DNA from: Clostridiales bacterium
GTDB taxonomy: Bacteria; Bacillota; Clostridia; Christensenellales; Borkfalkiaceae
Assembly: GCA_015055805.1 (NCBI GenBank)
Contig: SVHN01000015.1
Span: forward strand, 1 to 32,104
Direction of reading: 5' to 3'
Length of the DNA stretch: 32,104 nucleotides
Part shown: positions 19,621-21,491 of the stretch, one piece after another
Numbering within the stretch: the first letter of the stretch is position 1
Layout of the letters: each line of letters begins with the position of its first letter
Program-made: the position numbers and the translations under genes
Notes under the pieces: model-generated
What the model was told of the DNA's origin: nothing
What the model saw: only the letters and a program-made list of their open reading frames with translations
Database searches by the model: none

Positions 19621-20403
19621 ATGAATTACTGGGATTATTACTTAGAGCCTACGCAATACACCGACGATATTTATCATATCGGCTCAAAGAACGCGCCGTG
19701 CTGGCTTATAAAGAGCCTTGACGGACTTATTCTACTTGATACGGGACTTCCTAAAACGCTCTATCAAATACTTGAAAACATCAATAAGTTAGGCTTTGAT
19801 TATCACGATATTAAACACATTATCCACTCGCACGGTCATATCGACCATATCGGCGGCACTCGCGCTTTGGTGGAAATGACGGGCGCAAAAACTTATATCG
19901 GCGAAGGCGACGCGGATATGGTAAGGGGCGTTAATCAGTTGCAATGGACAAACGAGTTTAATATGCCCTTTGAAGAGCCTTTTGAACCCGACGTTATAAT
20001 TAAGGACGGCGACGAAATCACTATCGGCGAAAAGACCTTTACCTTTTACGCTTGCCCCGGTCATACCCAAGGCACGCTTACTATTTTCTTTAACTGCTAC
20101 GACGACGGAAAAGAATACCGCGCAGGTATGTTCGGTGGCGCAGGGTTATTATCAATGTGCAAAAAGTATCTTGATAAATACTCTCTTCCCCACTCGTTGA
20201 GAGAAGAGTTTATTCAAGGCATAGACCGCATGATGGACGAAGTTATCGACGTGCATTTAGGCAATCACTTAGGCGACAATAAGCACGCTGAAAAAATGGC
20301 GGCAATGGGCGGAGAAAAAAATCCGTTCCTTGACGGCACAAGTTGGAAATGGTTCTTAGAAAAACGCCGTGCCGAGGCAATCGAAAAATTCAAAACAGAA
20401 TAA
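19621..20403 (+). CDS. MBL-fold metallo-hydrolase
   Basis: This 260-residue protein has the metallo-beta-lactamase signature HSHGHIDH (metal residues His71, His73, Asp75 and His76) and a third-position His148 in 'PGHTQGT'. At the site where many family members have a metal-bridging Asp (SGD), it reads 'MFGGAGLLS', with no Asp. Later histidines occur in 'VHLGNHLGD'. That pattern recalls B3-like subgroups. As the last gene of a sugar-acid operon it may act as a lactonase or thioesterase; neither can be proved from sequence. GAGGA precedes the ATG, and a strong terminator follows its stop. Confidence 0.88.
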   Translation: MNYWDYYLEPTQYTDDIYHIGSKNAPCWLIKSLDGLILLDTGLPKTLYQILENINKLGFDYHDIKHIIHSHGHIDHIGGTRALVEMTGAKTYIGEGDADMVRGVNQLQWTNEFNMPFEEPFEPDVIIKDGDEITIGEKTFTFYACPGHTQGTLTIFFNCYDDGKEYRAGMFGGAGLLSMCKKYLDKYSLPHSLREEFIQGIDRMMDEVIDVHLGNHLGDNKHAEKMAAMGGEKNPFLDGTSWKWFLEKRRAEAIEKFKTE

Positions 20404-20419
20404 GAATTTTATAATTTAG

Positions 20420-20461
20420 AAAAAAAGAACAACGACTTAAAAAAATCGTTGTTCTTTTTTT
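20420..20461. terminator. Terminator of the AraC-GH-aldolase operon
   Basis: GAACAACGA (20427-20435) pairs with TCGTTGTTC (20446-20454). The stem is preceded by seven As and followed by nine Ts, so it can act on both strands. It lies 17 bases after the MBL-fold gene stop. Confidence 0.9.
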
Positions 20462-20510
20462 TTCGCGACTATCGAGATTTGCTGATTGACTGTATAATTA
20501 TCTTATATAA

Positions 20511-20660
20511 AATAAAAAGTGCGCAACCGAAAGGCAACGCACCGAAAAACGTATTGCCCACAGTTGCAACACAGTTCCACACTTACAGCATAGGAATACA
20601 GGGCATACGCTTTTACCAAAGTAAAGTATGCCTATACTGTAAAAAATTAAACTGTGTTGC
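20511..20660 (-). ncRNA. Candidate structured small RNA (about 150 nt)
   Basis: This element lies in the 359-base gap between convergent genes. A minus-strand promoter points at G20660. From there the RNA folds into an 11-bp perfect closing stem (20660-20650 with 20576-20566), a small internal bubble (20649-20643 opposite 20582-20577), a bulged apical arm (20642-20632 with 20593-20583; 20631-20626 with 20608-20603; 20625-20621 with 20616-20612) and a linker. It ends in a terminator hairpin (20542-20519) followed by UUUUUAUUUU. The hairpin's inner U-U-G steps form G-U wobbles only on the minus strand, which fixes the strand. The rod shape with a bubble recalls 6S RNA, but I cannot name the family. 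A dispersed repeat is the main alternative. Short open frames here lack ribosome sites. Confidence 0.6.
20519..20542 (-). terminator. Intrinsic terminator of the small RNA
   Basis: On the minus strand GUGCG, UUG, CC, loop UUUC, GG, UUG, CGCAC form a near-continuous 10-step stem with two G-U wobbles and one U-U, followed by UUUUUAUUUU. The same bases on the plus strand leave unpaired CAA/CAA and have no U-tract. Confidence 0.75.
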
Positions 20661-20666
20661 GACATT

Positions 20667-20695
20667 ATTATATCACACGCAAAAATTTTTATCAA
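20667..20695 (-). promoter_or_regulatory. Promoter of the small RNA
   Basis: Reading the minus strand, TTGATA (20695-20690) and TATAAT (20672-20667) are separated by 17 bases. The predicted start, G20660, is exactly the first base of the RNA's perfect closing stem. Confidence 0.7.
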
Positions 20696-20714
20696 GCCGT
20701 TTTATAAAAAAATA

Positions 20715-20745
20715 AAAACTCAACTTATAAACCAAGTCGAGTTTT
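20715..20745 (-). terminator. Terminator of the SDR gene
   Basis: AAAACTC-A-ACTT (20715-20726) pairs with AAGT-C-GAGTTTT (20734-20745) across a seven-base loop. The minus strand continues with a U-rich tract (20714-20704), 18 bases after the SDR stop. The plus strand also has some Ts but no gene ends there. Confidence 0.75.
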
Positions 20746-20762
20746 ATGTATTTTATATTCCG

Positions 20763-21491
20763 TTAAATTAAGAACGGCGCTTTATTCGCCCTATGAACGT
20801 TGATTTCGTCTATTACCGCGTTTGTGCGGTGGGTTAAAATAAACGTAACGATATCTGCGATATCTTCGGGCATAATCATTCCTTCCGCTGTTAGATCGGG
20901 ACGTGATATTTTTACCATATCGGTATAAACTCCGCCAGGTGATATCGCATGAACTCTTATTCCGTCTTTATAAACTTCTGCTGCAAGCGATTTGGTAAAG
21001 CCTAAAAGCGCGTGCTTTGACGCGCTATACGCGCTTTGATTGACGTAGCCTTGATGCGCTACAACTGATGCGATATTTATTATGCTTGCGCTCTTAGATT
21101 TTTTTAGGTACGGTAAAGCCGTTTGAGTTAGCAAATACGGTGCTCTTGCATTTATATTCATTATTTTGTCAAACGTTTCTATATTCGTACTTTCAAACGG
21201 TGAATTAAGGGTTGCGCCTGCGTTGTTTATCAATATGTCGGGTGCGCCAAACTCTTCCACCGCCGCTACAAAATTTTCGGTTATAAACTTATCGTCGGTA
21301 AGATTACCTGCTTTCACATAGCACTCTCCGCCACAAGCCGTAACGGCTGATAAAGTTTCATTAAGTTTTTCTTTATTATTTCCACCAAACAAAACTAGTT
21401 TTGCGCCTTCTTTTGCTAGCGCGACTGCTATGGCTCTACCTATTCCGCCGCCTGCGCCCGTAATGAAAGCCGTAAGATTTTTAAGTTTCAT
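20763..21491 (-). CDS. Short-chain dehydrogenase/reductase (SDR)
   Basis: This 242-residue protein is a classical SDR: TGAGGGIG at residues 11-18 for NAD(P), NNAGA at 89-93, and the catalytic Ser142, Tyr155 and Lys159 (YSASK). Classical SDRs oxidise or reduce hydroxyl and keto groups on sugars, acyl chains and many other substrates. It is a single gene with its own promoter and terminator. AAGG precedes the ATG. The surrounding carbohydrate genes suggest a sugar or sugar-acid substrate, but there is no direct operon link. Confidence 0.92.
   Translation of the reverse strand: MKLKNLTAFITGAGGGIGRAIAVALAKEGAKLVLFGGNNKEKLNETLSAVTACGGECYVKAGNLTDDKFITENFVAAVEEFGAPDILINNAGATLNSPFESTNIETFDKIMNINARAPYLLTQTALPYLKKSKSASIINIASVVAHQGYVNQSAYSASKHALLGFTKSLAAEVYKDGIRVHAISPGGVYTDMVKISRPDLTAEGMIMPEDIADIVTFILTHRTNAVIDEINVHRANKAPFLI

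Follow-up and report, generated by a model that had tools for sequence, protein, structure and literature searches.

A structured RNA of a Clostridiales bacterium is probably an orphan copy of a large transcription attenuator family

T-box leaders (Rfam RF00230) are rich in stems, carry an antiterminator and sometimes occur in tandem, and second-messenger riboswitches are known to be present in many copies per genome. Attenuators and riboswitches with terminator/antiterminator platforms, as surveyed in PMC2965389, consist of a 5' leader, an intrinsic terminator, a mutually exclusive antiterminator and a gene behind them, and all of these parts are shared by the RNA family described here. Among candidate structured RNAs of the human microbiome, 508 lie directly upstream of genes (PMC8040213). 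We analysed a structured element in a stretch of 32,104 nucleotides from a Clostridiales bacterium (the window) and conclude that its RNA is very probably an orphan copy of a large cis-acting transcription attenuator family of Clostridia. The anatomy of the leader, its two mutually exclusive pairings with their covariation and its position before genes are established here by computation.

The element is read on the minus strand and sits between the 3' end of a plus-strand gene (19621-20403) and the 3' end of a minus-strand gene of the SDR family (20763-21491). The former encodes an MBL-fold protein that was left without assignment, since its best match, a B3 metallo-beta-lactamase model, scored 164.7 bits against a cut-off of 240. 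A -35 box (TTGATA, 20690-20695), a 17-nt spacer and a -10 box (TATAAT, 20667-20672) can be read in the sequence, with a predicted +1 at G20660; relatives also have -35-like boxes ahead of the first stem, and the gap of 6 nt between stem and -10-like hexamer, the latter loosely defined, is the same in 89 of 134 parsed copies. The predicted +1 is the first base of stem P1, in which 20660-20650 pairs with 20576-20566 over 11 bp without mismatch (12 bp in the computed fold), coinciding with inverted repeat I2 (14 nt, 93%). A small internal loop inside P1 is followed by a second arm and the apical region. The inner arm P2 (20631-20640 with 20585-20594, from fold and alignment) keeps 10 of 10 pairs in L004, L207 and the window copy, among which one pair has both of its bases changed and another a single base; it can be aligned in these three nearest copies only, and most of the other eight alignment rows lack its pairs. 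The terminator hairpin (strands 3 and 4, 20519-20543, -14.0 kcal/mol alone) runs into the U tract TTTTTATTTT (20509-20518) and is one-sided, with no U tract after the hairpin when it is read on the other strand. The fold of 20662-20505 has an energy of -55.9 kcal/mol compared with -35.41 ± 3.65 for 200 dinucleotide shuffles (z -5.61), none of which folded as well. The promoter, the start at G20660, the 11-bp stem, the inner arm and the one-strand terminator that had been proposed in a sequence-only reading are therefore all present in sequence and fold, and both support its prediction of a structured RNA that has its own putative promoter and terminator.

When 44 genomes of the genus were searched by DNA similarity, 22 had matches, mostly to the terminator part only, and the regions upstream of them shared one layout of promoter, stem from the start, inner arms, linker and terminator, mostly with a ribosome binding site (RBS) and an open reading frame (ORF) next. 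A linker-plus-terminator pattern matched 115 stretches of public genome contigs (L042-L156); the 80 titles listed were Clostridia, Clostridiales, Oscillospiraceae or Christensenella assemblies, and the named sources were mostly animal gut. From these two sources 134 distinct copies were parsed, and 76 long ones (186-218 nt), picked for dissimilarity, formed alignment A1. The covariance model derived from it, R1, comprises P1, the apical hairpin and the terminator. The window copy was kept out of R1 and was recovered at 54.3 bits (E 3.5e-6 in its genome) over model positions 1-210, the full length. R1 matched 34 of the 44 genomes of the genus and, in the order, 67 of 297 genomes and 36 of 125 sampled genera (E<=0.01 in both searches); the class sample (E<=0.001) gave matches in 92 of its 391 genomes, which belong to 54 of the 222 genera. 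The own genome was the sole match in a phylum sample of 299 genomes (E<=1e-4), which doubles as a specificity control. These counts include the own genome, the samples overlap, and scoring in the order, class and phylum searches stopped at 6 or 8 candidates for each genome, so copy numbers there are lower bounds. We counted 3 to 17 copies per genome in 14 genomes, most of them picked for many copies, and leader lengths of roughly 130-250 nt across the family. Tandem leaders, two or three at a spacing of about 210-350 nt with no gene seen between them, were observed in L018, L010/L028, L307, L309 and L310. L078 (2460-2504, minus strand) holds a partial copy reduced to linker and terminator, with an ORF behind it that reads like an ABC-transporter ATPase; this copy and two poorly parsed ones, L012 and L117, were left out of the selection for A1, the duplex energies, permutations, leader pairs, full and cut folds and recurring bases.

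The key part of the leader, absent from the sequence-only description, is the linker (strand 2, 20544-20565, AACTGTGGGCAATACGTTTTTC), whose partner is either strand 1, the apical segment AAAAGCGTATGCCC (20601-20614), or strand 3, as judged from duplex energies, covariation and permutation. In the window copy the 1:2 duplex has an energy of -18.4 kcal/mol and the 2:3 duplex -14.7 kcal/mol, values that take no account of pseudoknot geometry, and the terminator (-14.0) is in near balance with the 2:3 antiterminator fold (-13.5), as required of a switch. Among the 76 relatives in A1, 97.6% of the cells are paired in P1, where 8 of 10 pairs show changes on both sides, and the same proportion is paired in the 14-bp 1:2 helix, which joins the linker to the loop and 3' side of the apical hairpin and has both-sided changes at 4 pairs; the competing apical hairpin is paired in 85.5%. 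None of 500 shuffles reached any of five measures for the whole A1 structure, and sliding the partners by 1-3 columns reduced pairing to at most 47.2%. The terminator is paired in 100% of the cells, with most of its letters preset by the search pattern, and the constancy of linker and terminator in A1 proves little because the pattern had fixed these letters in L042-L156.

We therefore turned to divergent copies found by R1 (L201-L259 together with L182, n=60), which, like the window copy, are mostly short variants. The letters of linker, apical segment and terminator vary widely among them, yet each of the two partners is still matched by the linker. For the 58 copies that remained after L211 and L222 were left out, nearly all of them divergent, the mean energy of the 1:2 duplex was -17.3 versus -11.0 with a shuffled arm, and that of the 2:3 duplex was -15.0 versus -7.6 with a shuffled linker and -9.7 with partners swapped between copies. 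For 131 copies of the first set the corresponding values were -19.0 versus -11.3 (linker-apical) and -14.4 versus -7.1 (linker-terminator). With L078 and L012 left out beforehand, 113 of 132 copies had a 1:2 duplex stronger than any of 20 shuffles gave, and 19 did not; in L117, L225 and L241 it was no better than the shuffled mean. When 94 distinct linkers were permuted, the real combinations averaged -17.9 versus -13.9 for 1:2 and -16.7 versus -12.0 for 2:3, and none of 2000 permutations was as low for either. The real linker was the single best for only 7 (1:2) and 8 (2:3) of the 94, with median ranks of 12 and 9, many of the linkers resembling one another. Taken together, the duplex energies and the 2000 permutations indicate a mutually exclusive antiterminator that is kept by covariation: both pairings persist over the relatives while the letters change. 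A single strand with two exclusive partners, one freeing and the other breaking the terminator, is the layout of a transcription attenuator.

A start codon, a rough RBS and an ORF were found behind the leader in 177 of 190 distinct copies, counting the window copy and retaining L078, L012, L117, L211 and L222, under a rule of at least 35 aa within 260 nt whose start definition is loose, so that a few ORFs are possibly due to chance. In these 177 the leader lies between promoter and gene on the coding strand; the window copy has no such gene. The ORF begins within 60 nt in 151 cases, the median distance to the U tract being 21 nt. Judged crudely, the N-terminus is hydrophobic in 91 of the 177 proteins, and 52 are lipoprotein-like. 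The 137 complete dissimilar proteins fall into 69 Pfam families, none with more than 7 members, and the 25 of these families listed include BspA-type repeats (7), SHOCT (5), zinc ribbons, YpsA/SLOG (3), Rho_N (3) and DNA methyltransferases. By eye, a protein of about 77 aa (KKKxTNEEV...AENDL...) without an assigned function recurs behind leaders of several subtypes (L005, L026, L031, L061, L069, L072, L140, L182), and small proteins with a Rho_N-like start (LRxxGxxxGVxAPT...GRP) stand behind the leaders of L020, L202, L212, L213 and L214. In gut Clostridia the leaders stand at the head of many surface and accessory genes that are unrelated to one another, and the 177 ORFs would constitute one candidate regulon of well over 100 accessory genes.

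In 171 pairs, both leaders have an ORF behind them and show 80% identity or more along no less than 80% of the longer leader; these pairs are non-independent. The proteins were unrelated in 158 pairs and detectably related in 13, one of which is the same copy fetched twice. Across the 158 pairs, ungapped similarity fades on both flanks: it is down to about 30% at some 60 nt ahead of P1, and to about 35% no more than 10 nt past the terminator. Like leaders before unrelated genes suggest that promoter, leader and terminator move or get copied as one unit, and from these alignments the three seem to form one spreading unit. In L051, L076, L092, L103 and L148, leaders that are about 80-85% alike precede genes that, by eye, look like several different DNA methyltransferases, which hints at mobile or defence cargo.

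The sequence-only reading had offered a mobile palindromic repeat with its own promoter as one possibility. A promoter-leader unit before unrelated genes agrees with the mobile half of that proposal, whereas covariation shows that an RNA structure with its two alternative pairings is conserved in the leader, and the idea that the family is an inert inverted repeat is rejected on that ground. Nor did the own genome contain the many near-identical scattered copies of a REP-like repeat: DNA similarity gave one full copy, that of the window, and one further match to the terminator part, and R1 found two more distant copies, making three diverged copies by model. These two, G000:C16:26965-27168 (L182, outside R1) and G000:C2:14588-14779 (L002, inside R1 together with several genus copies, whose matches are by construction), each lie before an ORF. 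A phage or plasmid origin was rejected, as plasmids gave no match to the window copy, and viral contigs none to the long-form pattern or to the linker-plus-terminator pattern; a "Bacteriophage sp." record, MT835845.1, carries one copy (L272:2077-2230, E 4.7e-14 in L272) and was excluded as phage evidence because its neighbouring ORFs look chromosomal by eye.

Behind the window leader no ORF was found; within 100 nt there is only a second terminator-like hairpin (20420-20461), two-sided, formed by inverted repeat I1, whose arms contain A and T runs, and able in principle to stop read-through from the leader. Because no gene follows, the product would be limited to an RNA of about 150 nt, or about 240 nt with read-through. 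At 20715-20745, immediately ahead of the promoter, there is a further terminator-like hairpin whose arms are of the CTCGACTT/AAGTCGAG type, and similar hairpins occur upstream of several other copies, e.g. L023, L024, L144 and L076. Orthologues of the SDR gene next to the element were located at 11 loci, 4 of them shortened, presumably by contig ends, and R1 matched none of these loci at E<=1; the window copy is therefore probably recent at its present place. With no gene behind it, it is an orphan leader, probably without a cis target, and may be a fresh relic, a decoy or a small RNA. That it is an inert relic whose gene has been lost and which is now decaying has, in our view, a little less than an even chance: the missing ORF and the second hairpin fit such a history, and tandem leaders without a gene between them exist elsewhere (L018, L010), whereas all four strands of the window copy are intact, as are its promoter, P1, both linker pairings and the terminator.

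In the attenuator reading that we prefer, each copy consists of a promoter, a structured leader with P1 at its first base, the linker and an intrinsic terminator, usually a few bases before the RBS, and the linker would be the switch between strands 1 and 3. In the OFF state the 1:2 pseudoknot would leave the terminator 3:4 free, and in the ON state the linker would pair with the 5' arm and loop of the terminator to give the 2:3 antiterminator; a signal would act on formation of the pseudoknot, and termination would be truly regulated. The default state is uncertain, because the terminator formed in just 63 of 191 full-length nested minimum folds, counted as formed by the rule used here. When transcripts were truncated 15 nt into the terminator, 189 of 191 had the linker paired to the terminator 5' arm, a weak test given that 134 still did so with a shuffled linker. 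From these folds we think that many copies may favour read-through when the pseudoknot is absent. Few unpaired bases recur across copies, and the inner arms differ freely. AATA stands directly after P1 in 134 of 191 copies versus 56 in shuffles, and our guess is that it could be a hinge allowing the arm to fold back onto the linker; ACA or GCA, which follows the P1 3' strand in 170 of 191, is part of the antiterminator. An aptamer-like arm joined to an expression platform, and up to 17 copies per genome among the 14 chosen genomes, would suit a true small-molecule riboswitch class, but a ligand pocket would sit uneasily with so few recurring unpaired bases and such variable inner arms, and we regard this assignment as somewhat improbable.

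A broader and more speculative proposal is that, across many Clostridia, the shared RNA switch is a movable promoter-attenuator cassette that places accessory genes under one signal, with orphan copies as decoys for it. Surface, DNA-methyltransferase and other newly acquired genes would then be silenced by attenuation instead of DNA binding, and the leader would jack-knife at the AATA loop, its apical strand reaching back to the linker. We offer this tentatively and consider it rather unlikely.

The sequence-only reading had also called the element a self-contained structured RNA gene. For the window copy the absence of a gene behind it agrees with that description; for the family it does not hold, as 177 of 190 copies have an ORF directly behind. 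It is unlikely, in our estimate, that the window copy acts in trans as an RNA of about 150 nt, or as a decoy titrating some signal or factor to which the genome's two gene-linked copies would also respond. Such a role would account for intact strands with no gene behind them, the two gene-linked copies would be able to share the signal, and L129, L147, L211, L242 and L252 likewise showed neither an ORF nor a second leader behind them; against it, the 11 SDR-orthologue loci without a copy give no sign of long upkeep there, and the family overall looks cis-acting.

The statement that no known family matches holds for Rfam 15 in the window and in 60 fetched loci that carry copies. No family reached its curated gathering score on the element in the window, and all 42 matches at E<=10 in 20300-20900 were below their own cut-offs; in the window and the 60 loci only tRNA, tmRNA, RNase P and drum RNA were matched, none at the place of a copy. 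The 6S model, RF00013, gave no match in the window at gathering, none at E<=10 in 20300-20900 and none in the own genome (G000), and matched in 11 of the 31 genomes searched. At E<=0.001 it was seen in 1 of 19 searched genomes of the own genus and in 10 of 12 genomes of other genera. Conversely, ten 6S loci fetched from relatives had no R1 match at E<=1. The likeness to 6S RNA that had been pointed out, a long rod opened by an internal loop and equipped with its own promoter and terminator, is thus not borne out, as the two models fail in both directions and the family occurs in several copies per genome placed before genes; we reject 6S RNA, and a 6S-like RNA polymerase regulator is extremely improbable.

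The family is large and apparently has no name: among the matches listed in a search of literature titles and abstract openings, mostly excluding subscription papers, no such family was named. It may be among the 508 candidates of PMC8040213, whose text, in the extract, holds no description of such a family. Matched in about a quarter of sampled class genomes (92 of 391), with up to 17 copies per genome and no Rfam 15 match, it would rank among the larger undescribed leader families. With similar copies preceding unrelated genes, the nature of the signal becomes a question that experiments can address directly, and a 6S-like rod in such a genome gains a different, testable reading.

The closest comparisons remain the leaders named at the outset. 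Like T-box leaders, those of the family are rich in stems, have an antiterminator and are sometimes in tandem; they differ in that no Rfam T-box match was obtained in the window or the 60 fetched loci and that none of the 25 of 69 Pfam families listed is an aminoacyl-tRNA or amino-acid family. Relative to the attenuators surveyed in PMC2965389, the family is without a known aptamer and its leader stem begins at +1, its antiterminating strand also pairs with an apical part of the leader to form a pseudoknot, and its promoter and leader are found together before unrelated genes.
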